DNA of 39,048 nt from a bacterium (GTDB lineage Bacteria; UBP6; UBA1177). Both the position numbers and the translations under genes were made by a program. The DNA is taken from positions 1 through 39,048 of the forward strand of contig JAEESW010000021.1 of NCBI GenBank assembly GCA_016290135.1, written 5' to 3'. Below the pieces are notes generated by a model. It saw only the letters and a program-made list of their open reading frames with translations, searched no databases and was not told the DNA's origin. This document shows positions 12,028-27,076 of the stretch, piece by piece. Each line of letters starts with the position of its first letter. Position 1 is the first letter of the stretch.

Positions 12028-12070
12028 GAAAGCCTTTTTGCGGAAAAACTAAAAGTTCAATAGTATTTCT

Positions 12071-12097
12071 TTGCTTTCTTAAAAAAATAAATATAAT
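12071..12097 (+). promoter_or_regulatory. Possible promoter of the Cys-rich lipoprotein gene
   Basis: A perfect TATAAT (12092-12097) sits 55 nt before the start codon. The best -35 candidate is TTGCTT (12071-12076), at a short 15-bp spacing, so the -35 assignment is uncertain. Confidence 0.45.
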
Positions 12098-12152
12098 CGT
12101 CGCCGGGTAAGTAGTGTGCCCTGTTTTTATTTACATTTTTTTGAGGTATGAG

Positions 12153-13946
12153 ATGAAAAAGATCGCATTTCTATTAGTGGGTTTGGTTGCGGCTTTGTTT
12201 GTTTCCTGCGGCGGGGACAAAAAAGAGAAGCCGGAATGCGTCACAAATTCCGACTGCGGCAGCGGCCGGGAATGTATTGAAGGCTCCTGTTTTGACAAAG
12301 AGCCGGAAGAAGAAGTAAAGCCGGAATGTGTCACTTCGGAAGACTGCACGGACGGCAAAGAATGCCAGAATGGTTCTTGTGTAACTGTTCCGCCCTCTGA
12401 ATACTGCGGCGATGCTGTTGTCAACGGAACAGAACAGTGCGATGACGGCCAGGAAGCGAACGACGGCCATTATGGCGGCTGCAATGAAGACTGCACATTG
12501 GCAGGATACTGCGGCGATGCTATTGTCAACGGCGAAGAAGCCTGCGACAAAGGAACAGAAGGAAACGTCGGCGGCTACAACGGCTGCAAGGCAGACTGCA
12601 CGCTTGATGAACGCTGCGGCGACGGCGTCAAAAACGGCACTGAAGAGTGCGACGACGGCGAAAACAACGGCGTTTACGGATACTGCAACGCTCTTTGCAC
12701 GGGTGTAGGCGACTACTGCGGCGACGGTGTCAAAAACGGCGAAGAAGCCTGCGATGACGGCGAAAACAACGGAAAATACGGCAAGTGCAATACTGAATGC
12801 ACCGGTCTCGGCGACAGATGCGGCGATGCTGTTATTCAGAAAGCAGTATGCCCGGAACCTGCGGCAGAAGAAAGCGATGCCGACACTGAGACCCCCGACA
12901 CCGAAACTCCTGATAACGAGACTCCGGATACGGAAACTCCCGACACAGAAGTTCCTGATACCGAGACTCCCGACACTGAAGCTCCCGAAACTCCGGCTGA
13001 AGAGTGTGTCGTAAAGGAAAACGCAAACGAAGACTGTGACGAAGGCGAACTCAACGGTGTTTACGGACACTGCAACGCTGAATGCACCGGCTTCTACGGC
13101 TGCGGTGACGGTGTTCTTCAGGAAGACCAGGGCGAAGAGTGCGATTACGGCATAAACAACGGGACCGAATACTGCAAATACGGTGAAGAAGGGGAAGAAG
13201 GCGTTCCCTGCAAACGCTGCACTTCCGAATGCAAACTCTCCGAAGAAGATGCGACCCTCAACTACTGCGGCGATGCGGCTATAGTCGAGCTTAACGGCGA
13301 AGTCTGCGATGACGGCAAAGCTACGAACGGAACGATCTACGGACAGTGCAATGCAGAATGCACGAGCCTTATGGTCTGCGGTGACGGAGTCACTCAGCGT
13401 GCAGGCTGCTCCGGTTACGACAACTGTGTCGAAGTTACAAATGCAAACGAGATATGCGACAGCAACACCAAAGCATGCAATACTCTCGCGCTTGTTTATT
13501 CGGCAGAGAGCGAGGCTCTGTGCAGCGAATGTTCTTCATGGGATGAGTCGACCTGCCAGTGCGCTGAACACTACTCAGGAACCGACTGCCTTGTCTGCGA
13601 CGGTGCTCATTTCTGCAACGGACACGGAACATGCACGGCTGACAAAAAGACCGCAAAGACGACTTGTGAATGCAAAGATCATTTCACAGGTCCTAATTGC
13701 AACGAATGTGAAGACAAATACCACCTTAACGATGCAGGCACCATGTGCATCAAAGATTGCGACTCGTCATGCGGACAGGCAAGCTTCCTCATCAACCCGG
13801 CAAGCCACGGTCATTGTGACTACTCAGGTGAAAAAGGAGTATGTGTCTGCGATCCATGCTGGGTAACAACCGGTGTCGCACTTGTTCTGCCGACATTCGA
13901 AACTCCCGAGTGCGCACAGTACACTCCGAACGTCCCCGGCTGCTAA
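12153..13946 (+). CDS. Lipoprotein with Myxococcus-type cysteine-rich repeats and EGF-like C-terminus
   Basis: A surface lipoprotein of 597 residues. ATG 12153 is chosen (GAGG 6 nt upstream) because it starts a perfect lipoprotein signal with lipobox VSC (Cys19); an upstream in-frame ATG at 12114 would put 13 residues before it. After two short Cys motifs of the type ECVTxxDC come many copies of the repeat CGDGVxNGxExCDDG...CNxxC, recognisable as the Myxococcus cysteine-rich repeat family (TIGR02232). A linker of repeated PDTET units interrupts them (12880-12996). The last third has EGF-like modules (for example CSSWDESTCQCAEHYSG and CNGHGTC). It ends without a visible sorting or anchor domain. 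The role is probably structural or adhesive on the outer surface; no catalytic motif is visible. It is monocistronic, with its own promoter-like sequence. Confidence 0.92.
   Translation: MKKIAFLLVGLVAALFVSCGGDKKEKPECVTNSDCGSGRECIEGSCFDKEPEEEVKPECVTSEDCTDGKECQNGSCVTVPPSEYCGDAVVNGTEQCDDGQEANDGHYGGCNEDCTLAGYCGDAIVNGEEACDKGTEGNVGGYNGCKADCTLDERCGDGVKNGTEECDDGENNGVYGYCNALCTGVGDYCGDGVKNGEEACDDGENNGKYGKCNTECTGLGDRCGDAVIQKAVCPEPAAEESDADTETPDTETPDNETPDTETPDTEVPDTETPDTEAPETPAEECVVKENANEDCDEGELNGVYGHCNAECTGFYGCGDGVLQEDQGEECDYGINNGTEYCKYGEEGEEGVPCKRCTSECKLSEEDATLNYCGDAAIVELNGEVCDDGKATNGTIYGQCNAECTSLMVCGDGVTQRAGCSGYDNCVEVTNANEICDSNTKACNTLALVYSAESEALCSECSSWDESTCQCAEHYSGTDCLVCDGAHFCNGHGTCTADKKTAKTTCECKDHFTGPNCNECEDKYHLNDAGTMCIKDCDSSCGQASFLINPASHGHCDYSGEKGVCVCDPCWVTTGVALVLPTFETPECAQYTPNVPGC
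12880..12996 (+). repeat. Low-complexity PDTET-coding tandem repeat
   Basis: An in-gene array of roughly 15-18-bp units, coding for variants of ETPDTETPDNETPDTE, forms a negatively charged extended linker between Cys-rich modules of the lipoprotein. Such runs expand and contract by slippage, and the length may vary between strains. Confidence 0.85.
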
Positions 13947-13985
13947 CAGCAACTGACGACCATCACGTTTTTCATTCATAAAAAA

Positions 13986-14013
13986 TTGTCAAAAATCTCT
14001 TTTGTCTTAAAAT
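13986..14013 (+). promoter_or_regulatory. Possible promoter of the MoxR-like ATPase gene
   Basis: TTGTCA (13986-13991), a 16-bp spacer and TAAAAT (14008-14013) lie 37 nt before the start codon. This is a consensus match only. Confidence 0.5.
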
Positions 14014-14050
14014 CACAAGGTTTTTTAAACATTTTCTTGTGAGGCAGGCT

Positions 14051-15055
14051 ATGGAAAACAACAAATCAGGAGAACAAAAAACATTGTCCGGCACTGAAAT
14101 GCACAGCCGGATCAGAACTCTTCTTGCGTATTTGAACCGGAACCTCAGCGGCAAAGAGGAGGCCCTCCGGCTTTCGCTGCTTTCCGCTGTTTCTGGTGAA
14201 AGCATCATTCTTCTCGGCCGGCCCGGTCGCGACAAGAGCCTTGTAAGCCGCTGCGTTGCAAGTGCATTCCGCGATTTTTACAAAGACGGCGTGTTCAAGC
14301 TCGAGCACGGCGGCTATGTTGAATATTTTATGAACGGAACGGAAGACGGGACCGAATTCGGGAAAGCGAAGATCCTTTTTCTTGATGATATCTGGTCGGG
14401 CAACGCGGCCGTTTTGAACAAACTTCTTAAGATCATCAATAAAGAAGATGATCCCGCCAAGCCGGCATTTGTTATGGCAGGTTCGTCGGAAGCGGATCCC
14501 TACAAAGCGGCGGAAGAGAGAAGATTCGAGGCGCTGCGTGAAAGTTTTGCCCTTCATGTCGGCATAAAACCGATTTCAAATGACGATGATTTCTTTGAAT
14601 TCGTAAACAGCACCGGGAAGGTTCCTCAGCCGGATGAAGATCAGAAAACCGCATTGCTCAGCTTTGACGAAATAGAAAGCTGGCAGCCGATGATCGATCA
14701 GGTCAGACTCAGTGAAGAAACCAAAAATGTCATCTCAGAGATCAGAAGGAAGTGCTTTGACTACTATGTGAGCGATTCCCGCTGGAAAAAGATCGTTCAC
14801 GTCATTAAGACATGCGCTTTCCTCAACGGCAGAAGCGAAGTCGACCTCATGGACTGCTCACTCATCGACTATGCCATCCCGAACCGTTTTGTCGAAGAGA
14901 TCCTGAAACGGTACGCTGTTGACTGCAAACTCGACGGCAGACAGCATGTCCAGTACAAAATGAACATCTTCGCACGCCAGAAATACTACGAGATCCTACG
15001 CGCTTCGATCGATGATACAAAGCTCAAACTTGAGCATAAGGACGGGTTGTACTAA
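14051..15055 (+). CDS. MoxR/RavA-like AAA+ ATPase
   Basis: An AAA+ protein of 334 residues of the MoxR/RavA group, whose members are chaperone-like ATPases that usually activate or remodel partner complexes carrying von Willebrand A domains. ATG 14051 is chosen over a GTG at 14039 because GAGG lies 6 nt before it. The Walker A is GRPGRDKS (residues 56-63) and keeps the invariant G-x4-GKS-like pattern as G-x-P-G-x-x-K-S, but RD replaces the usual small residues. The Walker B is ILFLDDIWSGNAAVLNKLL, with Asp in place of the usual catalytic Glu. The region resembles RavA (LDEIW, AILN). The C-terminal ~120 residues are helical. No VWA-domain gene (ViaA-like) is adjacent, which is unusual for the family. 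It appears to be transcribed alone. Confidence 0.8.
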   Translation: MENNKSGEQKTLSGTEMHSRIRTLLAYLNRNLSGKEEALRLSLLSAVSGESIILLGRPGRDKSLVSRCVASAFRDFYKDGVFKLEHGGYVEYFMNGTEDGTEFGKAKILFLDDIWSGNAAVLNKLLKIINKEDDPAKPAFVMAGSSEADPYKAAEERRFEALRESFALHVGIKPISNDDDFFEFVNSTGKVPQPDEDQKTALLSFDEIESWQPMIDQVRLSEETKNVISEIRRKCFDYYVSDSRWKKIVHVIKTCAFLNGRSEVDLMDCSLIDYAIPNRFVEEILKRYAVDCKLDGRQHVQYKMNIFARQKYYEILRASIDDTKLKLEHKDGLY

Positions 15056-15130
15056 ACCCACAATAAACTTCTGAATATATTGGCCTTTTTCTTTGAGGGC
15101 TAAAAATTTTTCTCAAAAAACTCATTTTTC

Positions 15131-15160
15131 TGTCAACTCGGAAGTTTTCCACCGCTTATA
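15131..15160 (+). promoter_or_regulatory. Island promoter motif, copy A (upstream of first zinc-ribbon gene)
   Basis: GTCAAC (15132-15137), 17 bp, then CTTATA (15155-15160), with TTTTCC inside the spacer at 15145-15150 and an A/T-rich run upstream. The same arrangement occurs at 17300, 24919 and 26557, always just before a gene in the same direction. A -35/-10-like layout at fixed 17-bp spacing suggests recognition by a sigma factor other than the housekeeping one. Confidence 0.75.
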
Positions 15161-15188
15161 TGTTGTGTAGGCAGTTTGATTGACAACA
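15161..15188 (+). promoter_or_regulatory. Inverted repeat TGTTGT-N16-ACAACA in the leader of the first zinc-ribbon gene
   Basis: TGTTGT (15161-15166) and ACAACA (15183-15188) are perfect inverted copies separated by 16 nt, directly after the CTTATA element. The same leader sequence is found unchanged at 26586-26613. It spans the expected transcription start, so an operator is as likely as an RNA hairpin. Confidence 0.5.
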
Positions 15189-15201
15189 AGAGGAGGGAAA
15201 G

Positions 15202-15495
15202 ATGAAAGACGAGTTCGAAAGAGAGATCAGATGTGAAAGCGAGGGAAAGATCTGTTACACAGAAAGAGAAGCGGGAAACGCTATCAACGGCGCGAAGCAT
15301 CACGGCAACAGAGCAAAAAAGATTCCGCATAGAAAATATTTCTGCAAAGAGTGCGGCTGCTTCCACCTGACAAGCCAGAAATCAAAGAAAGGCTGCTGTT
15401 CAAAACAGGCTTACGATCAGAAGCGGAACAAGATCATCGCTTTAGAATATAAGAAACTCTGGCGCGAAGAATATCGCTTTCTTTGCGCTGCATAA
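15202..15495 (+). CDS. Small zinc-ribbon-like protein (97 aa), paralogue of 26629-26922
   Basis: A 97-residue basic protein. ATG 15202 is preceded by GAGGAGGG. It has a putative metal site built on CKECGCFHLTS (residues about 49-59), with two further Cys near the N-terminus (IRCESEGKICY) and others after residue 65. The pattern K-I-x-Y near the N-terminus followed by C-x2-C-x2-(W/F)HLTS is seen in small phage- and mobile-element-borne zinc-ribbon proteins. Nucleic-acid binding is plausible but not proven. The C-terminal third is Lys/Arg/Tyr-rich. It is preceded by island promoter copy A and followed after 25 nt by the DUF1566 lipoprotein, so the two are probably co-transcribed. The paralogue at 26629 has the same length and most residues identical. 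Confidence 0.85.
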   Translation: MKDEFEREIRCESEGKICYTEREAGNAINGAKHHGNRAKKIPHRKYFCKECGCFHLTSQKSKKGCCSKQAYDQKRNKIIALEYKKLWREEYRFLCAA

Positions 15496-15520
15496 CACAA
15501 CGACCCTAACAGGAGGAGAA

Positions 15521-17266
15521 ATGAAAGATCTTTCAATGATTTTACACCTTTGTGTGATTGTGTTCTGTATTGTGCTTTGCAGTTGTTCTTCAAAAGAAGA
15601 AAAAGAGGAATCAACAAATCAGGCGACTACAGAAAGTATGATTCTGATTCAACCTGAAAATGATCCCGATCCAGTCATACGGCACGAGACGCAGTCTAGT
15701 GTAACAACCGATGCCGCATCGAATCTGATGTGGTCGCAGCCCTCTCCCGGACCGATGTATTACGATAGTACCGCAGAATACTGCGAAGAGTTGCGCGAAG
15801 GCGGTTTTTCCGACTGGAGACCGCCGACAACCGAGGAATTGAAATCAATAATGAAAGATTGTTCAGGATTCAAGGAGGGAAGCGGCATATTCTACACAGA
15901 AAAAGAGGCGGACACATTGCGGACTTATGTCAACGGATTTTACCTTTACGACAGCTGTTTCTGGTCTTTTAACGAAAAGGAAAATAACCAGAACTGGTTT
16001 AACGGTTACGGGATGGTTAGCGGAAAAAGCTGCCTTGCCGATCCTGACTGGCATCCGTGCCGCCCGTGTATGCGGGATCTCTGCAATGTTGCGTGCGTCA
16101 GGGAATCTTCCCCGAAAGATTTTGCCGCAGAGAAAAAAATTGAAATAGAAAAAGCAATCGATCCCGACAAACTGCAGTGGTCTGAAAGCACGATGTCGAA
16201 AAAGAAAAATTACACAGCAACGCTGCTTGCAGAGCGGCACATTATGTACTCCGCAGCAAAAAAACTTTGCGATGAAAGCTGGATCTGTGAAGAAGACGAA
16301 GAACGGGAAATTCCCTGCGGATACCTGTATCGTGACTGCATGGACGATACTTTCGGGGTGCATGATGCCTATGCATACTGCGAATCTTTAAGAGAAGGAG
16401 GCTTCGACGACTGGCGCCAGCCGACGATTGAAGAATTGAGATCGCTGAACAAAGATACCAAAAAACTGGAAAAAGACGGGAACGAAAGTTTTTTCCTTGC
16501 TGCAAGAAGCACTCACGGGATAAGGGCTCTCACGGCGAACTCGATATGGGACGGCTCTAATGCGAGACCTGACCGGTTCGGCTGGACATACAGTCCGGTG
16601 CTCGACCTCGCTCTTTATGTGCCGGTGATAAACCACGATACAGATGTGATCTGCGTCCGCGACAGAAAAGATGACGATTTCAAGGTTAAACCTAAAAGGA
16701 AACCTGAGAAATCATTACCGAATCCCAAGTCTTTGAAGTGGTCGTCCGTTGCAGCCGATCCGATGACATGGGAAGAAGCACAAAATTACTGCTCAAACCT
16801 TGCAGAAAACAACCATTCCGACTGGCGCCTGCCAAACATCGATGAATTGCGCACGCTCATTCAAAACTGCGACAAAACCAAAGCGGGAGGCAGGTGCAGG
16901 ATCAGCGAAAACAGACAGTGCCTCGATGAAAAATGCTGGAGCAAAGATTGCAACGGGTGCGGTAAAATCAACACTCTGACGGCAAAAACGGAATACTACG
17001 AGCTCGAAGAAGAAACCCGAAAACAACTCTTGGAAGAAATAAACGATCCCAAATTCAGCAAAATCAAATCAAAAGAGGCTTTCTGGTCGTCAACTCTCGA
17101 CCCGGAAAACACTAAAGAAGCATGGGGCGTTGACTTCTTGAATGCAAGAGTCGGTCACATGACGATGCTTGTTGACGCATACGATCGCGGAGGAGCGCAT
17201 TCGGCAGATTTTCCCTACATTCTCGACTATAAACTCAAAGTTGTATGTGTAAGAAATAACCAATAA
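15521..17266 (+). CDS. DUF1566-domain lipoprotein
   Basis: A 581-residue secreted lipoprotein. The start ATG follows AGGAGG. The signal segment ends at Cys22 (LCSC, a slightly unusual lipobox with Cys at -2). Three DUF1566-like modules are present: about 60-195, 215-385 and 400-581. They are marked by SDWRPPTTEELKS, DDWRQPTIEELRS and SDWRLPNIDELRTLI, each closing with a CVR motif. The third is the most canonical and the first two are diverged. It is the same family as the minus-strand gene at 8437-10347 but without the acidic spacer or EGF-like part. It lies 25 nt after the small zinc-ribbon gene, so it may be driven by island promoter copy A. The function is unknown; surface binding is the family expectation. 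Confidence 0.85.
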   Translation: MKDLSMILHLCVIVFCIVLCSCSSKEEKEESTNQATTESMILIQPENDPDPVIRHETQSSVTTDAASNLMWSQPSPGPMYYDSTAEYCEELREGGFSDWRPPTTEELKSIMKDCSGFKEGSGIFYTEKEADTLRTYVNGFYLYDSCFWSFNEKENNQNWFNGYGMVSGKSCLADPDWHPCRPCMRDLCNVACVRESSPKDFAAEKKIEIEKAIDPDKLQWSESTMSKKKNYTATLLAERHIMYSAAKKLCDESWICEEDEEREIPCGYLYRDCMDDTFGVHDAYAYCESLREGGFDDWRQPTIEELRSLNKDTKKLEKDGNESFFLAARSTHGIRALTANSIWDGSNARPDRFGWTYSPVLDLALYVPVINHDTDVICVRDRKDDDFKVKPKRKPEKSLPNPKSLKWSSVAADPMTWEEAQNYCSNLAENNHSDWRLPNIDELRTLIQNCDKTKAGGRCRISENRQCLDEKCWSKDCNGCGKINTLTAKTEYYELEEETRKQLLEEINDPKFSKIKSKEAFWSSTLDPENTKEAWGVDFLNARVGHMTMLVDAYDRGGAHSADFPYILDYKLKVVCVRNNQ

Positions 17267-17299
17267 TTTAACAGCTTTAAGCTTTTTGCGCAGATTTTT

Positions 17300-17329
17300 T
17301 GTCAACTCGGAAGTTTTCCGACGCTTATT
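17300..17329 (+). promoter_or_regulatory. Island promoter motif, copy B (upstream of nrdG operon)
   Basis: GTCAAC (17301-17306), 17 bp, then CTTATT (17324-17329), with TTTTCC at 17314-17319. The first 20 bases from TGTCAAC are identical to copy A. The nrdG start lies 33 nt downstream of the motif end. Confidence 0.75.
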
Positions 17330-17362
17330 AGAGTGTTGCTGGCTGCTGAAAGGAGAGATCAA

Positions 17363-17809
17363 ATGACGGCAAAGACAATTAGAATCGCTTCAATTAAAGA
17401 AAGTTCTCTTTGTGACGGTCCAGGGTGCAGAACCGTCCTTTTTCTGCAAGGATGCGACATTCATTGCGATGGTTGCCACAACCAGAGCACATGGGATCCG
17501 AACGGCGGCACAGAATACGACATCGATGATCTGTGTTCTGAAATCAGAGCCAAAAGCTGCTGCAACAAACTGACGATCAGTGGTGGAGAACCTCTGTTGC
17601 AAAAGGATGCGGTTCTCGAACTCTGCAAGGCTCTGCAGGATTTTGACCTGTGTCTTTACACCGGACACGATTCTCAAGAGATTCCCGAAGAACTGCTTAA
17701 ATACGTTCGTTATGTGAAATTCGGTCCGTTTGAGAAAAAGAATATTCTTTATACTGGCTATTACGGCTCTTCAAATCAAACATTCATGGAGGTGAAGAAA
17801 GATGCTTAA
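17363..17809 (+). CDS. nrdG: Anaerobic ribonucleoside-triphosphate reductase activating protein
   Basis: A radical-SAM enzyme that installs the glycyl radical on NrdD using S-adenosylmethionine and a 4Fe-4S cluster. It has 148 residues, normal for NrdG. ATG 17363 has AAAGGAG upstream; an earlier in-frame codon at 17333 has no such site. The cluster ligands are Cys31, Cys35 and Cys38 (CDIHCDGC, the C-x3-C-x2-C signature), followed by the SAM-binding SGGEPL motif. It is the first gene of a five-gene operon and overlaps nrdD by 8 nt. Activator-before-reductase order and strong overlap are common in phage and mobile versions. The presence of class III reductase implies growth without oxygen. Confidence 0.95.
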   Translation: MTAKTIRIASIKESSLCDGPGCRTVLFLQGCDIHCDGCHNQSTWDPNGGTEYDIDDLCSEIRAKSCCNKLTISGGEPLLQKDAVLELCKALQDFDLCLYTGHDSQEIPEELLKYVRYVKFGPFEKKNILYTGYYGSSNQTFMEVKKDA

Positions 17810-19496
17810 TCAGAACAAAAATGACAATGCTGCAAACCGCATAAGTTATGTCGGTGAAAACTACAACTGTGGAGAAAAGGTAAAAAAAGAAGAAATCCTT
17901 ACTTCGCTTCCTCAGGAATGGGCAGATCTTCACAAGCAGGGATACATACACATCCACGACCTTGATGCCTACGGTATGACCTACAACTGCCTGACATTCG
18001 ACATTAAAAACGCCTTTCCCTATGAAAGATTCTCAGGTCTCGACGAAACCAAAATCATCATCTGGGTCTTTGATTTCATAAAAGAGATCTTTGCAAAAAT
18101 GGGCAACGAGCAGGCCGGAGGAATGGCATTCGCGAATTTTGACAAAGATTTTGCGGAAATATTTACAAAACTCGGAGTATCATTCGAAGGAAATGAGAAA
18201 ATTTTCAAAGCATCAATAGGATCTCTCATCATGTGGTGCAACGACATGCACACCAGAATGGGACAGACCAGCTACTATGTAACGTTCAATACCGGACTCG
18301 GAACCGACGAATTTTCCCGTTTTCTCACATTTACTCTCATTGACGAATTCGAAAACGCCGGAGATCTGGTGTACAAACCGAATATTGTCTTCAAGGTTCA
18401 CAAAGGCGTCAACCGCTCGAAAGGCGACCCGAATTTCAATCTGTACGAAAAAGCTCTGCACTGCACATCCAAGAAAATGCTTCCGACCTACCTTCTCTGC
18501 GACTGTGAAGAAGACAAAGATACAGATCCGGAAAGATTATCGGTAATGGGCTGCAGAACAAGAGTCGTCAGCGATATTTTCGGCAAGACCGGAGCTATAG
18601 GACGCGGCAACATAACGAACATTTCTGTCAATCTTCCACGTCTTGCGCTCGAAGTTATGAAAAACCATCCTGAAAAGAGCGATTCGGAAAAGATCGAAGA
18701 GCTGAAAAAACGCTGGATCGAAATTGCAGAGCCGACAGCTCAAATTCTGCTTGACAGATACAAAAAGACCATTGATGCAGATCCGACTCTGTTCCCGACA
18801 AACCACGAATATAAATTCTGGTGCGAAGATATGAACACATCCGGCTTAGAAGGAACTTTCAAACACGGAACTCTTTCGATAGGATTCATCGGCTTAAGTG
18901 AAGCCATCGAAATCCTTACCGGATGCAAATACTGGGAAAATGAAAACGCTTACAGACACGCTCTCGATTTCGTCGCTTTTATGCGGGACTATACAGATTC
19001 TTTAACCACAAAACATCATCTGAATTTCTCGCTACTGGCAACAAGCGGAGAACTGATCAGCGGCAGATTTACCGAAATCGACAAAAAGACCTTCAACCAT
19101 CAGGCACTTGAAAAAGGGTTTTATACGAACTCGTTTCATGTCAATGTCGACAGTAAACTTCCTGCACACAAAAAATTGGAAGCTGAAGGATCTTTCCACA
19201 AGTTCGCAAACGGCGGTTCCATTTCCTACATCGAACTTGAAGAAGCACCTCTCAGCAACACTGAAGGACTCGCCGATTTAACGGAAATAGCCATCAAGAG
19301 CGGAGTCCGCTACCTTGGATTCAATTTTCCCAAAGACAAATGCAACGACTGCGGCACTTCAGGAGTATTCGATATCTGCCCGAAATGCGGAGGGAAAAAC
19401 ATTACAAGAATCAGGAGAGTCTCGGGTTATCTTGAAATTTTGGACGGTTTTACTAAAGGCAAAAAAGCGGAAGAAAAACACAGGAGAGCAAACTGA
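17802..19496 (+). CDS. nrdD: Anaerobic (class III) ribonucleoside-triphosphate reductase
   Basis: It reduces ribonucleotides to deoxyribonucleotides with a glycyl radical. The protein has 564 residues, shorter than typical chromosomal NrdD (about 600-700), and the N-terminal ATP-cone regulatory domain is missing, so allosteric activity control is probably absent. The C-terminal zinc site is complete (Cys514, Cys517, Cys526, Cys529), followed by RRVSGYL with Gly542 as the radical glycine. The body keeps the HIHDLD block near residue 46 and an NFSLLATSGE block corresponding to the usual NxSLLATPAE region. It starts inside nrdG and its TGA overlaps the next ATG by one base. A compact NrdD lacking the ATP cone resembles virus- or plasmid-borne enzymes; whether another copy exists in the genome cannot be seen. 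Confidence 0.94.
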   Translation: MLNQNKNDNAANRISYVGENYNCGEKVKKEEILTSLPQEWADLHKQGYIHIHDLDAYGMTYNCLTFDIKNAFPYERFSGLDETKIIIWVFDFIKEIFAKMGNEQAGGMAFANFDKDFAEIFTKLGVSFEGNEKIFKASIGSLIMWCNDMHTRMGQTSYYVTFNTGLGTDEFSRFLTFTLIDEFENAGDLVYKPNIVFKVHKGVNRSKGDPNFNLYEKALHCTSKKMLPTYLLCDCEEDKDTDPERLSVMGCRTRVVSDIFGKTGAIGRGNITNISVNLPRLALEVMKNHPEKSDSEKIEELKKRWIEIAEPTAQILLDRYKKTIDADPTLFPTNHEYKFWCEDMNTSGLEGTFKHGTLSIGFIGLSEAIEILTGCKYWENENAYRHALDFVAFMRDYTDSLTTKHHLNFSLLATSGELISGRFTEIDKKTFNHQALEKGFYTNSFHVNVDSKLPAHKKLEAEGSFHKFANGGSISYIELEEAPLSNTEGLADLTEIAIKSGVRYLGFNFPKDKCNDCGTSGVFDICPKCGGKNITRIRRVSGYLEILDGFTKGKKAEEKHRRAN

Positions 19497-20062
19497 TGAT
19501 TTATTACATCTCTGACACCCACTTTAAAGACCAGAAAATCTTCGACAAGTGCAGCAGACCTTTTGCTTCACTTGATGAAATGGAAAAAACAGTTGTCGAG
19601 AAGTGGAACAAAAAGGTTAAGAATGGCGACACCGTTTATGTTTTAGGCGATATCGGCAAAGATGACGATCCGTCAACCATCCTGATATTCAGCAGATTAA
19701 ACGGCCTCAAACATTTGTTAGTCGGCAATCACGACCATGAAATGCTGGAAGAAATTAAAAAATCCGGCATGTTTGAATCAGTCAAATTCATTGATTTGAT
19801 CGAAGATTCAGGCTTCAAAGTCTGTTTGTGCCACTATCCGCTGATGGATTGGATGGAATTTAACAGAAGCGGTCTGCTGGTCTACGGTCACATTCACAAC
19901 AAAACCGAAAAAAACGGACATGCCTACAAACTGATGAAAGAATACTATCAGAATCTGCCGGCTTATAACTGCGGAGTTGATGTCACGGATTTTGAACCTA
20001 AAACCCTGGAAGAACTGATCAACCTTAAAAAGGAGAAGGAAAATGAACCATATATCCATTGA
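19496..20062 (+). CDS. Calcineurin-like metallophosphoesterase
   Basis: A 188-residue single-domain enzyme of the calcineurin-like phosphoesterase superfamily. All dimetal-binding motifs are in order: Asp7 and His9 (SDTH), Asp52 (GD), Asn78-His79-Asp80 (GNHD), His113 and Gly131-His-x-His134 (GHIH). The compact size and the start MIYYISDTHF are typical of a small subgroup frequent in phage and mobile elements that hydrolyse phosphodiesters or nucleotides. The ATG overlaps the nrdD stop by one base. Sitting between a ribonucleotide reductase and a nucleotide kinase suggests a role in nucleotide or nucleic-acid end processing. The substrate cannot be deduced. Confidence 0.9.
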   Translation: MIYYISDTHFKDQKIFDKCSRPFASLDEMEKTVVEKWNKKVKNGDTVYVLGDIGKDDDPSTILIFSRLNGLKHLLVGNHDHEMLEEIKKSGMFESVKFIDLIEDSGFKVCLCHYPLMDWMEFNRSGLLVYGHIHNKTEKNGHAYKLMKEYYQNLPAYNCGVDVTDFEPKTLEELINLKKEKENEPYIH

Positions 20063-20624
20063 AGGAATGGACGGTGTCGGAAAATCAACAGTATGCGCAA
20101 AGCTGGCGGAAAAACTCGGATACAGATTCGTTGAAAAATCACTTCACTATCTTATGGATGATTCAGAAGACGATGTGTCTCAGTACCAGAAAGTCGCCAA
20201 ACGAGTAAATTCCAATCCTGACAGAAACTTTACGGCATGGTACTACGGACTGAACAATATCTACACCTACACACAATTCCAGGGTGAAAACATTGTCACA
20301 GACAGGCACATCGTCTCGAACTACTGCTGGAGCGGCACAGAAGACAACAGCGACATCTACGATCTCATTCTGAAAAAAATCGGAAAACCTACTCTTACGG
20401 TTATCCTGTATGCAAAACCCGATGCGATTTTAAAACGTCTTAAAAACCGAAATCCGGAAGATCCGGATATAGCCAAAGTTGAAAAATCTGAAAAAGCCTA
20501 TGAAAAAATGATCCGATTCTGCAAAGAAAGAGAGTTTAACTACATTGTAGTTGATTCTTCGGAAAAGAGTCCGAATGAAATCGTTGATGAAATCTTGAAA
20601 AAAGGGGATTTAAACCATGCCTAA
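20043..20624 (+). CDS. Thymidylate/deoxynucleoside-monophosphate kinase-like P-loop protein
   Basis: A 193-residue P-loop kinase related to thymidylate kinase and deoxynucleoside kinases. The Walker A is GMDGVGKST (residues 8-16) and the substrate-site DRH motif is at 87-89. A lid-like Arg/Lys-rich segment lies near residues 135-150 (LKRLKNRNPEDPD). The start overlaps the phosphoesterase gene by 20 nt, with an internal AAAAGGAGAAGG ribosome binding site. With nrdGD it would complete a small pathway from NTP to dNDP/dNTP precursors. It is diverged from housekeeping Tmk, so its base specificity may differ and cannot be read here. Confidence 0.85.
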   Translation: MNHISIEGMDGVGKSTVCAKLAEKLGYRFVEKSLHYLMDDSEDDVSQYQKVAKRVNSNPDRNFTAWYYGLNNIYTYTQFQGENIVTDRHIVSNYCWSGTEDNSDIYDLILKKIGKPTLTVILYAKPDAILKRLKNRNPEDPDIAKVEKSEKAYEKMIRFCKEREFNYIVVDSSEKSPNEIVDEILKKGDLNHA

Positions 20625-23076
20625 ATACTCAATTCAGGAAATAAATTCCATTGCAAAAGATATGAAATACGAAGCTCTTTACTGGGCTTTGGGGTTCGAA
20701 AAAAAAGACTCCGGCGTTTTTAAGAAACAGTATGCCGAAGGCTGTTCCGGAGAAATTGATTCAGAAAAACAATCCGCCAGTTTTGACGGAATAGACAAAA
20801 CTATCGCGCTGAAGACTCACGAATCTTTCGTCGTGCTCGAATGTCTGGACAAACTTCTCTCCATGGGGTATCAGCCGGAAGAAATCTCTCTGTTTTCGGA
20901 GACCGGTTTCGATATTCAGTGTTCCGATTTGAAAATCGCATGTTTCGAATGGAATCACATCGAAAAAAATATCAAACAAACCCCGGTTTTCCCAAAGACC
21001 AAACTCATCCATTATCAGTCAAGGCTCGTGAGCGGACTTATCGAGCGGGAATATTTTGTAAAAAATCACGAAAACAAACTCTATACTTCAGGCATTTTTG
21101 AACTGGAAGAAAAAGCAGAAGAATACCGCCTTGCCAATCCTAAAGCTGTAAAATCAGAGGATTTTATCATCAAAGGAACAAAAGTTCTGGAATATACCGG
21201 TCACAAGAAACACGTCATCGTTCCCGAAGGAGTAACGGATCTTGCATCATGTCTTTTCTGGGACAATCAGGAAATAGAAGAAGTGATGCTACCGGAATCT
21301 TTGGTAAACATCGGCGGAGACACTTTTTACAACTGCAAAAATCTGCTGAAGGCAAACATTCCGGCCCATGTGAAAGTTATGGGGAACAATCCTTTTGCCG
21401 GATGTCCCAAAATCAAAATCACAAATAATTCAAGTAGCTTTCAAATGGAAGACGGGGTTTTGTACGACAAAAATTTCTCCAAACTCATCTACTATCCGGT
21501 CTCCAGAAAAGAGAAATCCTACCAAATAAAATCCGGCACAAAGATCATAGGCAAACATTCGTTTTTCCTATGCAGCAATCTTACCGAACTTACGATCCCC
21601 GAATCTGTAATAAAGCTAGAGAACAACCCTTTTTCCGGCTGCGACAAGCTGAGCATTGACAACAGGTCGGCTTCATACAAAATCATCGACAAAGTTATTT
21701 ACGACAAGGATTTTTCTTCCGTTATCGGATGCCTGAATTCTATAAAAATAGAGGAACTGCGTTTAAGAAATGTGAAAAAAATCTGCCGCAACTCTTTCTG
21801 GAACTGCAAAGGAATCAAAAAAATCATCCTTCCGGAAACTTTGGAAACCATCGGCTACAATCCGTTTGTCGGATGCTCTGGAATCGAATTCGTGTCAGAA
21901 TCGGAAAATTTCGTGGTCGAAAACGGTCTTCTTCTTTCAAAAGACAGAAGCAAACTGATCTGCTGTCCGGCAAAATTCGCCATCGGAGAAATTCATATCC
22001 CGGACAGTGTCACGAATCTGGAGCGGGGAGCATTCTCGGGATGCGGCAAAATGACCTCGATAAACCTTCACAATGTTTCCATCATAGGCAAAACCTGCTT
22101 CACGAACTGCGATTCCCTGAAAACCGTTTACTGCTCCGATCTTGTTGCCTATATCGGGGAGTGGGCTTTCGCTCATTGCAGAAACTTGTCGGAAATTTCA
22201 GTTTTCCAAGAGTGCTTCATCGACAAAAATGTTGTTTCCAACACTCCTGCAAAAATTACTCTCAGAAACATCCGTTCAAATTATGTGATCGAATCAGACA
22301 ACCTTTTTACGCTGAAATCCATGATAAAAAACTACGAAGGCAAAATAAAAGCGATACTGATCGACCCTCCTTACAACTCGCACATAGACTACATCGGTTA
22401 TAAAGATGAATACGAGGGCTCCGGATACGAAAAATTTATGGAAGAGCGTGTCGAACTTAGTAAAAAACTGCTTTCGGAAGACGGTTTCCTGGTCATAAAT
22501 ATTGACGATAACGGTTTGGACGACATCGTGAAAGTATGCAAACGAATTTTCGGCGAAATGAATGTCTCTGTCAAAAAATGGAAGAAAAAGCATGAGTTTT
22601 TTGATGTCAACAGAGTTGTTTTAAATCCCAACAAAATCCAGACCGATTACGAATTTATAATTTTTGTGAGAAAATCGGAGAAATCTGTTCTGAACAAAAT
22701 CATGCAGCCTTATCTCGAAAACGGTAAACTGAAAGAAACACTATCCGGTGTGCCTGAGATCTTCGACTGTTTCGGAACGACTTCTTCCGCAAAAGATGAA
22801 ATCGCGGAAATTTTCGGCAGGAGAGATTATTTCTCGACCCCTAAGCCTGTGAAATTAATGAAAGAACTTGTCCGTGCCACAACAAAGAGTGATTCCATAG
22901 TCATGGACTTTTTTGCAGGAAGCGGAACTACCGGACAGGCAGTTTTTGAACTAAACAGGGAAGATAACGGAAACCGGCATTTTATCCTGATTTCGAACAG
23001 CGAATCCGATATTTGCAGAAATATCACAATGAAACGGATGGATAGCATCGGTGCTGAATACACCGCGTTATACTGA
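20617..23076 (+). CDS. Fusion of leucine-rich repeats with a Mod-type DNA methyltransferase
   Basis: An 819-residue protein with three parts. Residues 1-190 show no clear family; residues 60-115 resemble the N-terminal nuclease-like region of some restriction-modification proteins but lack a full catalytic set. Residues about 195-545 are BspA-type (LRR_5) leucine-rich repeats (for example VIVPEGVTDLA, EVMLPESLVNIGGDTFYNC, KIILPETLETIG and IHIPDSVTNLERGAFSGC). Residues about 555-819 are a beta-class DNA adenine methyltransferase like Mod of type III systems: DPPY at 583-586 (catalytic motif IV), SEDGFLVINIDDN, a target-recognition stretch at about 645-735, STPKPVKLM, and FAGSGTT at 766-772 (AdoMet-binding motif I). 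It is the last gene of the nrdG operon and overlaps the kinase gene by 8 nt. No Res helicase/nuclease partner is present. BspA-type repeats are normally extracellular, so their fusion to a cytoplasmic DNA-modifying enzyme is odd; there is no signal peptide. Confidence 0.9.
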   Translation: MPKYSIQEINSIAKDMKYEALYWALGFEKKDSGVFKKQYAEGCSGEIDSEKQSASFDGIDKTIALKTHESFVVLECLDKLLSMGYQPEEISLFSETGFDIQCSDLKIACFEWNHIEKNIKQTPVFPKTKLIHYQSRLVSGLIEREYFVKNHENKLYTSGIFELEEKAEEYRLANPKAVKSEDFIIKGTKVLEYTGHKKHVIVPEGVTDLASCLFWDNQEIEEVMLPESLVNIGGDTFYNCKNLLKANIPAHVKVMGNNPFAGCPKIKITNNSSSFQMEDGVLYDKNFSKLIYYPVSRKEKSYQIKSGTKIIGKHSFFLCSNLTELTIPESVIKLENNPFSGCDKLSIDNRSASYKIIDKVIYDKDFSSVIGCLNSIKIEELRLRNVKKICRNSFWNCKGIKKIILPETLETIGYNPFVGCSGIEFVSESENFVVENGLLLSKDRSKLICCPAKFAIGEIHIPDSVTNLERGAFSGCGKMTSINLHNVSIIGKTCFTNCDSLKTVYCSDLVAYIGEWAFAHCRNLSEISVFQECFIDKNVVSNTPAKITLRNIRSNYVIESDNLFTLKSMIKNYEGKIKAILIDPPYNSHIDYIGYKDEYEGSGYEKFMEERVELSKKLLSEDGFLVINIDDNGLDDIVKVCKRIFGEMNVSVKKWKKKHEFFDVNRVVLNPNKIQTDYEFIIFVRKSEKSVLNKIMQPYLENGKLKETLSGVPEIFDCFGTTSSAKDEIAEIFGRRDYFSTPKPVKLMKELVRATTKSDSIVMDFFAGSGTTGQAVFELNREDNGNRHFILISNSESDICRNITMKRMDSIGAEYTALY

Positions 23077-23090
23077 GTTCTGCTATAACC

Positions 23091-24851
23091 CTATATTCTG
23101 GTTTTTTTGATGCATTCGAGCAGATATTTGCAGCAGTCGAGAGTTTTTTCCTTATATTCCTCTTTCAGAAGTTCATCATTGTTATGCTGATAAGGGTTTC
23201 TCGCCCTTTTCAAATGATCGGCTGCTTTTTTAAATTTGTCGTATTCTTCAAATATTTCTCCTAAATTCAGATTGAAATACTCCAATTCACACAGCAAAAA
23301 CAAACCTCTGGTATTTATCGCTTCAAGAATGGTGATTTCTGCGTCAGGTTTCATACTGGCTGAATTCTTCATCTTATCTTTCAGCTTTATTGCTTCTTCT
23401 AAACAATATGAAAGAGAATATTCCTCCATTGTGTAAGTTTTACCCGTATTTTTATCTGTACAAGGCTTAGCGTTTTTTCTCGGAATGTCGTTTGGATAGA
23501 AATAGTTTTGCATTTTCTGCCGAGTCTTTTCAGAGATTTTCAAAATATACTTTTCAGCAATCCTTTTTTCCCAATCTTCTTCGGAATATACTTTTTTCAA
23601 TCGGGATTTCAGAATAGCTCTCATTCCGGTCTCCGTATCGTGCCAGAGCGGGAAGAAATTTATATCCCGTTCTTTCATTTTCATGTATTCATACAGTTTC
23701 CCGGAGATAATTTTCGGATTTTTTCTGCCATCAAGAATTCCGTAATCATATAAAGTGTCAATATCGATCTGAGTGCACTTTTCATCCATAGGACCGAAAA
23801 CTATCTGATATAGCTTGTTCTTCAGCTCTTCTCCCAACAAATTAAGTATTGCCTCAAATTCAGGATATATAATTTTTGCTTTTTCCCTGAATATTGTCTC
23901 CATATCCGCAGGTTTGCCATCGTCTTTTTCCGCTTTATACTCTGCCAGAATAATATCTGACCAGTACGGATGACCTCCGGTAAAACATTTAAGAAGAGCT
24001 CGTTCTTCATCATTCAGTTCAATACCTAAAGTTGCGTTGCAACGATAATAATTGACGAGTTCTTTATCAGAAAATCCTCGAAGATACAGTTTGTTGTCAC
24101 CGATGAAATCCAGATCCTCCACTGATGTTTCAGATACAATAACAAAAGTTGCATCGTATTTCGGATTAGTCACCAATTCTTTGAGAACAGTAAAAAAACG
24201 TTTGCGATTTTTAAACAGTTCTGAAGACTTATAAAAATCATCGACAATACATAGGACCCTTTTTTTATAACTTTTTATTGTGTCGAAAAATTTGCATAAA
24301 GTATCTTCCCCGTCATTTTCTATATTTTCGCTTTGGATTTTTTCATTTAATCGAAACAGATTGCTACTATAACCCCAAGAACTATTTTCTCTTTTAATGA
24401 TTTCACAAATTTTTTTAGCCATATTTTTGAAAAATATATCAGCAGAATCTGAGATACCGGCCAATATTTTTACTACTATGATATTATTGTTTTGGTAATA
24501 TTCTTCAGTTTTAGACTCAAACACATTGTAAATCAGAGAGGATTTCCCGATTTTCCGCATTCCGACTACATTCACAGAACGACACTGCCTGATCGTTCTG
24601 GCAAACAATTCCTTTTCTATTTCTTTTCTTTGGATATAGGCTTTTCCCTCCATAATATTACCGACATTTTTAAATCGGCTTTCTTCTTCTCCGGAAATTT
24701 TTTCAGAGATTTGCTTTTTACGTGATTGTGATTTTTTCTCGAACAGGCGTCCCAAAAAGAATGCAATAATAGCAGATATAGCAGCTACTACTATGCCGAA
24801 AAAAACGGGAGAACCACCGTTACTGTTTCCAATTTTTTTCCTTTCCGCCAT
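23091..24851 (-). CDS. Membrane-anchored STAND-like NTPase with C-terminal HEPN motif
   Basis: A 586-residue protein. ATG at 24851 is preceded by GGGAG; a GTG at 24866 is less likely. Residues 15-34 form a single transmembrane helix, leaving the rest presumably in the cytoplasm. The P-loop NTPase domain has Walker A GMRKIGKS (98-104 region), Walker B VLCIVDD (199-205) and TGGHPYW (291-297), a signature of AAA-like/STAND ATPases. A winged-helix-like middle part follows. The C-terminal ~120 residues are helical and carry RNPYQH (Arg551...His556), the R-N-x3-H motif of HEPN RNases. STAND ATPases joined to HEPN are known among antiviral and abortive-infection systems; a threat-activated RNase is inferred here. 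It is transcribed divergently from the CARF-sigma pair and converges with the LRR-methyltransferase gene. It is noticeably A+T-rich compared with the surrounding genes. Confidence 0.78.
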   Translation of the reverse strand: MAERKKIGNSNGGSPVFFGIVVAAISAIIAFFLGRLFEKKSQSRKKQISEKISGEEESRFKNVGNIMEGKAYIQRKEIEKELFARTIRQCRSVNVVGMRKIGKSSLIYNVFESKTEEYYQNNNIIVVKILAGISDSADIFFKNMAKKICEIIKRENSSWGYSSNLFRLNEKIQSENIENDGEDTLCKFFDTIKSYKKRVLCIVDDFYKSSELFKNRKRFFTVLKELVTNPKYDATFVIVSETSVEDLDFIGDNKLYLRGFSDKELVNYYRCNATLGIELNDEERALLKCFTGGHPYWSDIILAEYKAEKDDGKPADMETIFREKAKIIYPEFEAILNLLGEELKNKLYQIVFGPMDEKCTQIDIDTLYDYGILDGRKNPKIISGKLYEYMKMKERDINFFPLWHDTETGMRAILKSRLKKVYSEEDWEKRIAEKYILKISEKTRQKMQNYFYPNDIPRKNAKPCTDKNTGKTYTMEEYSLSYCLEEAIKLKDKMKNSASMKPDAEITILEAINTRGLFLLCELEYFNLNLGEIFEEYDKFKKAADHLKRARNPYQHNNDELLKEEYKEKTLDCCKYLLECIKKTRI

Positions 24852-24918
24852 TGAATTCTCCCGCACCTCGAACCAAAACGGGGAAATATAAACAATCCGA
24901 AAAAAATTGAAAAAATTT

Positions 24919-24948
24919 TGTCAACTTCACTTTTTTTCGCCGCTTATA
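24919..24948 (+). promoter_or_regulatory. Island promoter motif, copy C (upstream of CARF-sigma operon)
   Basis: GTCAAC (24920-24925), 17 bp, then CTTATA (24943-24948), with a T-run ending TTTTC at 24938. It lies 85 nt before the CARF start codon, inside the divergent region shared with the STAND-HEPN gene. If the downstream sigma factor recognises this motif, the operon is self-activating. Confidence 0.75.
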
Positions 24949-25033
24949 TATAGCGTGAATGGTTCTTTTAGTTGCGAAAAATTTACAAACTTATAAAAAC
25001 AGACAGATTTATTTGTCTATTTGAGGTGAAAAA

Positions 25034-25654
25034 ATGAAAAAAATCTTATTTGTAACACTTCCGCTTAAAGGAAATTTGGAAAAACGCATCTACCCGGTTG
25101 ACGGCAACTCTCTGCTTGAGATCAAGGAGCCGATCTGTTTTGCAGCAACAGCTGCTCTGGTCAGCAAACTTAAAGCTGATGACGAAGTGAAAATCATACT
25201 TATCGAGACAAAAGGCGGCGAAAACGCAGGAAGCGAAAACGCAAAACTTTTTATCGATGAATTGAACCGATTCAACAAATCCGGCGCAAAAATCACCAAA
25301 GAGATCATTCCGACGGCGTTCGATCCTTCAAAAACCAATTTTCAGTTTCTCTTCAAAGCTTTGCTCAAAGAGCTGGAACATGATGCCGAAATTTATGCGG
25401 ACATAACATTCGGTCCGAAAACTCTGACCATGCTTCTGTTTTCTGTTTTTCAGTTCGCCGAGAAATTTTTCAACTGCTCCATAGGTTATATAGTTTATTC
25501 CAAGGTCGAATTCCAAAAGGGTGAAATTGTTAAAGGTTCAGAAATGATCTATGATGTAACTCCTATCTATCTCATGAACACTTTAACTAATTTAATGGAA
25601 GCTCCCGACAGTGACAGTGCGATCAGAACGCTTGAAGCATTGTTTGAGGAATAA
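25034..25654 (+). CDS. CARF-like sensor protein without an effector domain
   Basis: A 206-residue protein that looks like a stand-alone CARF (CRISPR-associated Rossmann fold) domain. It has a Rossmann beta-strand start (KKILFVTLP), a long mid-section, and the motif ADITFGPKTLTM (residues 122-133). The Asp-x-Thr-x-Gly-x-Lys core matches the ligand-site motif of Csm6/Csx1-type CARF proteins, which bind cyclic oligoadenylates. No HEPN, nuclease or HTH domain follows. The start has GAGGTG upstream. It lies 2 nt from the sigma-like gene, so the two are translated together, and the natural reading is that the CARF protein holds or activates the sigma-like protein in response to a nucleotide signal. 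No cas or cyclase gene is in view. CARF assignment rests on the motif and secondary-structure pattern and needs profile confirmation. Confidence 0.7.
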   Translation: MKKILFVTLPLKGNLEKRIYPVDGNSLLEIKEPICFAATAALVSKLKADDEVKIILIETKGGENAGSENAKLFIDELNRFNKSGAKITKEIIPTAFDPSKTNFQFLFKALLKELEHDAEIYADITFGPKTLTMLLFSVFQFAEKFFNCSIGYIVYSKVEFQKGEIVKGSEMIYDVTPIYLMNTLTNLMEAPDSDSAIRTLEALFEE

Positions 25655-25656
25655 CC

Positions 25657-26538
25657 ATGGACGAAATTTCCAACAAAATCAATGAACTTTATGAAGAATA
25701 TGCAAATATTTCAGATGCAGAAAATGCAGAAAAAGAAAAATTGGGGAAACGGCAGAAAATCATTGCTATTGTGTGGCAGTCCAAAAAAAATTACAAAGAG
25801 CGCTCTTTGGAAGTTGTTAAAACGGTCATAGATTCTCTGAAAGACTTTCCTGATTCCGATGACTGCAAAAAAGAAGGAGTGTTGTTCAGCCAGTATCTCA
25901 TATTTTCATTAAACAAGGTGATCAACACGGCAAAAGGCGAAGAAGCTTTAGAGCAAAGAACAGGCCTGTCTATTTCTGACTCGGATCACAGAAAAATACG
26001 CAGAATAAACCATTGCATCAAAGTTTTGCTTAGAATGAACCCTCTTCTGGAAGGAAATGCGATAATTGAGAAAGTAGCTGCAACACTAAAAGAGGACAAA
26101 TCCGAGATAAGAAGTCTTATAAGGCTGGCAAAAAGCGCATCTCTCGAACTTGAAATCCATAATGATGAAGATGATGAAACTGTCCTTGTGGAAGAAACCC
26201 ACGGGGATATGGTTGAAAAAAATCCTGTTGAAGAGATTTGCATTTTGCATGAAAGAGCGGAAAAAATCCTTTCGTACATAGATTCCGAGTGGAAAAAGAA
26301 ATCCGATCCGATGCTTTCGGAACTGCTTACAGTCTTTATTCTTAAACAGGATTTTAACGTTAAAGATTTGGTGAAATATGCTTTCATTGACAAAAAAATT
26401 TGTGCCGCCTATTCCAAAGATCCCAATCATAACCTTCCGCAAGATCAGGAAATCGCTAAGAAATATGAAAAAGACAAATCAATAGCAAGCCGTGCTCGTA
26501 AAGAGTTTCTAACAAAAATAGCTAAATCCAATCTCTGA
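25657..26538 (+). CDS. Divergent sigma70-family-like transcription factor
   Basis: A 293-residue protein laid out like a sigma factor with regions 2-4. Residues about 50-120 resemble region 2 and region 3 start: LFSQYLIFSLNKVINTA corresponds to the FSTYA...I..AI core, then IRRIN. Residues 125-205 resemble region 3: KVAATLKEDKSEIRSLIRLA, then SLELE, an acidic run, and NPVEE, like SLDxP...ED...SPEE in sigma70. Residues 262-290 form a C-terminal helix-turn-helix (QEIAKKYEKDKSIASRARKEF) like region 4. It is too diverged for a confident subgroup. It has an acidic linker at 165-190. The gene follows the CARF gene by 2 nt and is under island promoter copy C. The inference is that it directs RNA polymerase to the GTCAAC-N17-CTTAT promoters; an alternative is a sigma-like DNA-binding regulator that does not bind polymerase. 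Confidence 0.65.
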   Translation: MDEISNKINELYEEYANISDAENAEKEKLGKRQKIIAIVWQSKKNYKERSLEVVKTVIDSLKDFPDSDDCKKEGVLFSQYLIFSLNKVINTAKGEEALEQRTGLSISDSDHRKIRRINHCIKVLLRMNPLLEGNAIIEKVAATLKEDKSEIRSLIRLAKSASLELEIHNDEDDETVLVEETHGDMVEKNPVEEICILHERAEKILSYIDSEWKKKSDPMLSELLTVFILKQDFNVKDLVKYAFIDKKICAAYSKDPNHNLPQDQEIAKKYEKDKSIASRARKEFLTKIAKSNL

Positions 26539-26556
26539 AAAATTTTAAAAAATTCC

Positions 26557-26585
26557 GTCAACTCTCCCGTTTTTCACCCCTTATA
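26557..26585 (+). promoter_or_regulatory. Island promoter motif, copy D (upstream of second zinc-ribbon gene)
   Basis: GTCAAC (26557-26562), 17 bp, then CTTATA (26580-26585), with TTTTTC ending at 26575. From CTTATA onward the 35 nt are identical to copy A, while the spacer differs, so the two leaders are related but not a very recent copy of each other. Confidence 0.75.
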
Positions 26586-26613
26586 TGTTGTGTAGGCAGT
26601 TTGATTGACAACA
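26586..26613 (+). promoter_or_regulatory. Inverted repeat TGTTGT-N16-ACAACA in the leader of the second zinc-ribbon gene
   Basis: TGTTGT (26586-26591) and ACAACA (26608-26613) are an exact repeat of the arrangement at 15161-15188. The identical loop sequence suggests selection on the element or gene conversion. Confidence 0.5.
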
Positions 26614-26628
26614 AAAAAGGAGGAAAAC

Positions 26629-26922
26629 ATGAAAGACGGTTTCGAAAAAGAGATCAGATGCGAAAGCACTGGAAAGATCTGTTACAGGGAAAAAGAGGCG
26701 AGAACAACTCTCAACGGGGCAAAACATCATGGCAACAGATCAAAAAAGATCCCTAAAAGAATGTATTTATGCAAAGAATGCGGTTATTACCATCTCACAA
26801 GCCAGAAATCCGAAAACATCAGTTGCTCGAAACGCAATTACAATCAAAAGCGGAACAGAATCATCCTTTTTGAGTATAAAAAACTGTGGCGCGAAGAACG
26901 CTCCCTTTTTTCGGCCGCATAG
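26629..26922 (+). CDS. Small zinc-ribbon-like protein (97 aa), paralogue of 15202-15495
   Basis: 97 residues, the same length as its paralogue at 15202, with most positions conserved (for example IRCES-GKICY, NGAKHHGNR, LCKECGYYHLTSQKS, EYKKLWREE). ATG 26629 is chosen because AAAGGAGG lies 6 nt upstream and the paralogue starts at the same residue; an in-frame codon at 26605 falls inside the inverted repeat. The C-x2-C plus His pattern suggests a single small metal-binding site. It follows the CARF-sigma genes by 90 nt but has its own copy of the island promoter. It is likely controlled together with the paralogue; nucleic-acid binding is conjecture. Confidence 0.85.
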   Translation: MKDGFEKEIRCESTGKICYREKEARTTLNGAKHHGNRSKKIPKRMYLCKECGYYHLTSQKSENISCSKRNYNQKRNRIILFEYKKLWREERSLFSAA

Positions 26923-26965: not shown

Positions 26966-27076
26966 GGAATTTTGTGAAAAATTGCTCTAAAACAGCAGGA
27001 ATTTTGTGAAAAAACAGCAAAAAATAACTGGAATTTTGTGAAAATTGTGGTAAAAACTATCGGAATTTTGTGATGG
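26966..27076 (+). repeat. Four direct repeats of GGAATTTTGTGA at exactly 32-bp period
   Basis: Copies begin at 26966, 26998, 27030 and 27062. The first three extend to GGAATTTTGTGAAAA and the last reads GGAATTTTGTGATGG. The intervening A-rich sequences are only loosely alike. The period is close to three helical turns, so all copies face the same side of the DNA. The array ends 10 nt before the ATG of the AAA_14 ATPase, so it covers the promoter and leader of that gene. Confidence 0.9.

Follow-up and report, generated by a model that had tools for sequence, protein, structure and literature searches.

The main find of this analysis is a promoter-like motif repeated along a gene island within a 39,048-nt stretch of bacterial DNA (the window), and with it a CARF-linked, putative sigma factor gene that appears to be served by an island-wide private promoter, a combination that sequence comparison presents as a new element. 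On the opposite strand, the island carries a gene for a membrane-anchored NTPase with a HEPN-like C-terminus, which is most likely (we put the probability at about 0.6) a stand-alone module of abortive-infection type in an island run by the CARF-linked sigma factor. Direct support is available for the NTPase gene, its motifs, their conservation and the NTPase fold class, as well as for the promoter motif and the way in which it accompanies the CARF–sigma pair.

The CARF–sigma-like pair and the island promoter motif

The features of the forward strand that define the putative switch are as follows.

25034..25654 (+): standalone CARF protein, 206 aa (PADLOC CARF2--CARF, E 2.7e-73)
25657..26538 (+): divergent sigma-70-like protein, 293 aa (PDB profile search, hhalign)
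24918..24948 (+): CARF-operon motif TTGTCAACT-N7-TTTTCGCCGCTTATA, at 67 nt from the ATG of the NTPase gene
15130..15160 (+): motif copy upstream of a 97-aa gene (15202-15495)
17299..17329 (+): motif copy upstream of the NrdG-NrdD-phosphoesterase-dTMP kinase-DNA methylase operon (17333-23076)
26555..26585 (+): motif copy upstream of a 105-aa gene (26605-26922)

Eight genomes carry both the CARF gene and, directly behind it, the gene for the 293-aa protein. The original prediction had spoken of a CARF–sigma pair, and its sensor half stands, a standalone CARF being recognized by PADLOC, while the sigma half needs qualification, as the 293-aa window protein is matched by no Pfam sigma model. When its profile was compared with the entire PDB, only four matches were returned, three of them sigma factors (SigA, E 0.008; SigA, E 0.045; RpoD, E 0.33), and hhalign aligned the protein with the genome's own RpoD/RpoH-type pair across regions 2-4 at a probability of 93%. 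Sigma70_r4_2 matches one member of the family (E 0.0099). Because the protein is so divergent, its assignment rests on profile comparisons; a divergent sigma factor would agree with the evidence from the protein as well as with that from the promoter.

The motif was first spotted as a conserved block in aligned CARF upstream regions, where it is kept irrespective of which gene lies further upstream. In the 2.47-Mb genome, TTGTCAACT-N7-TTTTCnCCGCTTATA has four copies of 31 bp each (15130, 17299, 24918 and 26555; ≤3 mismatches), all located in the island and in one orientation; the reversed motif used as a control gave zero matches in the same genome, and zero copies are expected in shuffled window sequence. 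Elsewhere in the islands, it precedes a protein kinase-SF1 helicase gene, members of the 97-105-aa family, a Lcl-type lipoprotein gene, the F11 family and a vWA gene. The core is TGTCAAC-N15-CGCTTATA, its two boxes standing 15 nt apart in 38 of the 47 matches, and an A/T-rich tract lies 5' of the motif. Most copies are followed by a gene within about 135 nt, and all 37 of those on CARF contigs are on the CARF strand. Since it is restricted to the island, its reading as an ordinary housekeeping promoter was rejected.

Among 28 genomes of the phylum, four to six copies are present in each of the eight CARF–sigma genomes, one each in G005 and G014, and none in the remaining 18. The association between motif and pair has a Fisher p of about 3e-7 across the phylum and 1.6e-4 within the genus, values that overstate independence because the genomes are related. 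As the pattern was derived from the eight CARF genes, its presence there is by construction, which does not apply to the extra copies, to the genome-wide absence of the motif outside the island or to its absence from genomes lacking the pair. A search of viral contigs did not recover the exact motif. The lone copies (G005:C5:19840 and G014:C6:9747), for which no CARF–sigma pair was detected, are possibly remnants.

Several other features of the islands were recorded. The DNA methylase of the operon at 17333-23076 is a BspA-LRR DNA methylase, and four copies of GGAATTTTGTGA in 32-bp steps occupy window positions 26966-27073, just upstream of an AAA_14-DUF4143 gene (27087). The island of G013 (L020:8264-8294 and 11761-18917) contains vWA, protein kinase and very large genes and resembles MoxR-vWA-type conflict systems.

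A putative CARF–sigma switch recurs in a second phylum, in Treponema, as judged from homology and gene order. On plasmid pTS2 of Treponema saccharophilum, a CARF gene (39% identical) is followed by a sigma-like homologue (hhalign 96%) and then by an F11-family gene (40% identity, RNKITH retained), a bpMoxR ATPase and a vWA gene. Within about 123 kb examined in Treponema, AAAAAGCGTCAAC occurs twice. One copy, paired with an exact CGCTTATA at spacing 15, precedes the gene in front of CARF by 51 nt; the other, whose second box is degenerate, precedes the MoxR gene by 52 nt. The conserved companions of the Treponema pair are the F11 family and the MoxR-vWA genes, and no NTPase-HEPN homologue was found beside it. 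The F11 family comprises proteins of about 500 aa without a clear Pfam match, in which RN[RK]xTH is invariant (L016:7813-9336, L017:10868-12403, L018:10875-12392, L019:8203-9687 and L088:14723-16309); in four genomes its gene immediately precedes CARF, and in Treponema it comes just after the pair. By its sequence and placement, F11 appears a better candidate than the NTPase for a conserved RNxxxH partner of CARF–sigma.

The NTPase and its HEPN-like C-terminus

The reading frame of the NTPase extends from an ATG at 24851 to a final codon at 23094, with the stop at 23091-23093; an alternative in-frame GTG start at 24866 would add 5 aa. Its features are listed below.

23091..24851 (-): membrane-anchored STAND/AAA+-type NTPase with a HEPN-like C-terminus, 586 aa
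24741..24806 (-): N-terminal hydrophobic (transmembrane-like) helix, residues 16-37 (Kyte-Doolittle 19-mer 2.69)
24540..24563 (-): Walker A, GMRKIGKS, residues 97-104
24237..24257 (-): Walker B, VLCIVDD, residues 199-205, with D204 invariant in 8/8 homologues
23961..23981 (-): TGGHPYW, residues 291-297, where the lid/winged-helix region begins
23094..23660 (-): all-helical HEPN-like C-terminal domain (Pfam HEPN matches below cut-off; AF2 pLDDT 88.8)
23184..23201 (-): RNPYQH (RNxxxH), residues 551-556, candidate HEPN active site

The description of this gene in the original prediction is borne out. The single transmembrane helix that it proposed corresponds to the hydrophobic stretch listed above, and the AlphaFold model places a helix at residues 16-45; GMRKIGKS, VLCIVDD and TGGHPYW, which it named, are present, its numbering of Arg551 and His556 is correct, and the gene is indeed A+T-rich (34.9% GC against 46.5% for the window and 49-50% for the flanks), within a variable and likewise A+T-rich island (41% over 14-27 kb). 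Eight homologues are available, including the window's own, from seven genomes of a single genus, with identities of 42-91%. The P-loop, the Walker B aspartate, GG-x-PYW and RNxxxH are kept in all or nearly all of them, and invariance in 8/8 extends to G97, G102, K103, S104 and S105 of the Walker A region, to G292, P295, Y296 and W297 of TGGHPYW and to R551, N552, Y554 and H556 of RNPYQH.

The prediction of a membrane-anchored STAND-like NTPase also held, on the N-terminal helix together with the evidence on fold. Pfam AAA_35 matches the window protein above cut-off (E 6.7e-8) and all eight homologues. The AlphaFold model of the full protein (pLDDT 68.5) has Foldseek matches to 1w5t, 2qen, 2fna, ORC/Cdc6 proteins including ORC2, CED-4 and Roq1, the matches including archaeal Walker ATPases (2qen, 2fna), ORC/Cdc6, CED-4 and plant resistosome NB-ARC proteins, at E-values of 1e-5 to 1e-3 and TM-scores of just 0.3-0.5. 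Walker A, Walker B and a fold with a C-terminal helical/winged-helix extension, as expected of STAND/AAA+ proteins, are all present. A Pfam scan of the window protein detected no repeat sensor (TPR, LRR or WD40), its tail being the HEPN-like domain, and a profile search of the PDB gave no relatives of the whole protein.

A phylum-wide profile search of 28 genomes yielded no homologue outside the genus, and none was found in plasmids, phages or viral contigs; with these latter searches empty and the profile search finding it in one genus only, the HEPN alignment is shallow. Two named records match NTPase loci, a MAG labelled uncultured Spirochaetales and a yak-rumen bacterium. The homologues come in two forms. 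Those with the N-terminal helix (the window's genome G000, G015, G013, G008 and G011 C48) all lie inside CARF–sigma islands, the G013 copy having an in-frame stop after the helix, and those without it (G007, G018 and G011 C68) directly follow a second STAND-type ATPase gene. At L013:6144-10639, L014:5662-10787 and L015:8533-12014, the gene in front of the helix-less NTPase is the larger of the two (614-1146 aa), and the two may form a two-gene defence unit.

That the C-terminus is a HEPN domain, as the original prediction proposed, is probable from its sequence, the motif and the family resemblance having stood and a match at cut-off or in structure having not. Retention of RNxxxH in close homologues was checked, and it is kept in 8/8, down to 42% identity. 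Among the ORFs of the neighbourhoods (75,048 aa), RN...H occurs 14 times, eight of these in the NTPase homologues, four in one other family and two elsewhere, and its occurrence in the NTPase homologues exceeds chance. When the C-terminal 189 residues are searched alone, the best support goes to two Pfam families, HEPN_Swt1 and HEPN_Apea, both below cut-off; the former is found in 4/8 members (best E 3e-4) and the latter in 3/8, and the window tail scores 17.3 bits (cut-off 27.5) and 17.0 bits (cut-off 24.4), respectively. These matches cover RNxxxH and end near the C-terminus. A separate AF2 model of the tail is confident (pLDDT 88.8) and all-helical, with a long final helix after the motif, and its pLDDT minimum falls exactly on RNxxxH. 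For this model, Foldseek gave no match at E<0.4 in either the PDB or BFVD, and hence no HEPN structure. A relationship to NlpI was discarded, the PDB profile matches being weak and implausible. Elsewhere in the same phylum, L061 has a weak HEPN_Swt1 match.

Linkage of the NTPase to the CARF–sigma pair and alternative explanations

The divergent intergenic region between the NTPase and CARF genes, predicted at about 180 nt, measures 182 nt (24852-25033). The divergent adjacency itself is found at three of the eight NTPase loci and three of the eight CARF loci (G000, G008 and G011); the NTPase lies about 2.5 kb from the pair in G015 and about 17 kb from it in G013, and different neighbours flank it in different islands. 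Because adjacency varies and presence is not consistent, the NTPase and CARF–sigma are best regarded as separable modules of one island, and evidence for a functional coupling between them is weak. Some link remains, as the membrane form is limited to CARF–sigma islands among the genomes searched (5/8, against 0/20 other genomes).

The original prediction made the NTPase a toxic effector of the local system, coordinated with the CARF–sigma genes through their shared divergent region. An NTPase-HEPN acting as a dedicated toxic effector of the switch, co-regulated in this way, now seems improbable, although the divergent arrangement in three genomes and the confinement of the membrane form speak in its favour. 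The conserved element of the region is the promoter of the CARF operon, and the regulon motif is absent from the NTPase strand in 8/8 homologues (best score -8.5 bits, against 34-48 bits upstream of CARF); a search for a canonical sigma-70 promoter in front of the NTPase gave a single match, at chance level. In the divergent cases, the TTGTCAAC box reads GTTGACAA on the minus strand, where the upstream box is GTTGACA, so that competition or a shared element at this promoter region is possible, which would suit a co-regulated effector. Each partner nevertheless occurs without the other: the pair lacks the NTPase in G006, G012 and G017, the NTPase has no CARF nearby in G007, G018 and G011 C68, and the Treponema pair keeps company with F11 and MoxR-vWA instead.

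Two other explanations bear on the tail and on the motif. The C-terminus could be a helical sensor, an adaptor or an inactive HEPN-derived domain, which would make the protein a membrane-associated signalling NTPase; we regard this as unlikely, though less so than the effector role just discussed, given that the sub-threshold HEPN profiles, the Foldseek result and the N-terminal membrane helix are what it would lead one to expect, whereas the motif keeps its Arg, Asn, Tyr and His in all eight homologues, helix-less ones included. The repeated motif, for its part, might be a site of cassette exchange or recombination, or the binding site of another regulator. The order of modules near motif sites varies among genomes, and G005 and G014 have single copies without the pair, both of which this explanation accommodates; set against them are the position and uniform strand of the copies, the two-box layout with its fixed spacing and upstream A/T-rich tract, and the fact that the motif travels with the sigma-like gene in two phyla, and we consider such a site quite improbable.

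Proposed function, known systems and significance

According to the preferred reading, a stand-alone abortive-infection-type module, the protein would be a membrane-tethered STAND/AAA+-type NTPase whose HEPN-like C-terminus acts as a metal-independent RNase. Nucleotide-dependent assembly of the NTPase may, on the model of other NTPase-HEPN defence proteins, be set off by an infection cue, and assembly would pair the HEPN domains, leading to RNA cleavage and to growth arrest or abortive infection. The NTPase-HEPN would be an exchangeable module within the island; transcribed against the regulon, it would have its own promoter and not be a regulon target. The other operons of the island would probably be transcribed by the dedicated sigma factor through the private promoter TGTCAAC-N15-CGCTTATA, and the standalone CARF sensor, co-transcribed with the sigma factor, presumably gates it, in response to a putative ligand.

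STAND-HEPN fusions of bacteria have been described in which STAND modules follow a HEPN at the N-terminus (PMC3710099). With the Swt1/Abi2 STAND-ATPase/HEPN fusions, which are predicted RNase effectors (Anantharaman et al. 2013, PMC3710099), the present protein shares a P-loop STAND-type NTPase and, probably, a HEPN on one polypeptide, but there the HEPN is N-terminal, while here a HEPN-like domain is C-terminal, behind an N-terminal membrane helix, is divergent enough to score below the HEPN cut-offs and is found in one genus only. The co-occurrence of CARF and a HEPN-like domain at a single locus recalls the Csm6/Csx1 CARF-HEPN effectors; here, in contrast, the two are encoded by separate divergent genes with inconsistent linkage, in a genome without detected Cas10. 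Within the genus, Cas10 palm domains were found above cut-off in G005, G013 and G016, and Cas10 was undetected in seven of the eight CARF–sigma genomes including G000, the exception being G013, with completeness at 84% for G006 and 97-99% for G000, G008, G011 and G012 and some assemblies incomplete. Matches to Csm1 in most genomes were dismissed, none reaching cut-off and nearly all spanning only the first stretch of the model.

The CalpL-CalpT-CalpS system (SAVED-Lon protease, anti-sigma, sigma; PMC11229360) likewise ties a nucleotide-sensor family to a sigma factor, but here a standalone CARF adjoins the sigma-like gene, the island promoter is repeated and seven of the eight genomes lack detectable Cas10; no Lon/SAVED or anti-sigma gene was matched among the scanned window proteins. 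In PMC10910872 (2023), a CARF gene is paired with a transcription component or found with MoxR/vWA ternary systems, which resembles the present arrangement, but those systems adjoin type III CRISPR loci, and UAS-58 enters this comparison by name only.

More tentatively, a CRISPR-independent CARF may gate a dedicated sigma factor whose private promoter unites an exchangeable conflict island, with modules (kinase-helicase, MoxR-vWA, NrdDG-methylase and the RNxxxH protein F11) joining by carrying that promoter, and with the antisense membrane STAND-HEPN staying outside as an independent effector or guard.

Taken by itself, the NTPase-HEPN adds one fairly divergent protein to an established class of predicted abortive-infection proteins, and its surroundings outweigh it: CARF, a nucleotide-sensor domain met chiefly in type III CRISPR, here seems to be coupled with a sigma factor and a private promoter, in genomes mostly without Cas10. 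This coupling raises the questions of how defence islands may be switched on as units, how new modules join them and what signal a CARF reads without CRISPR.
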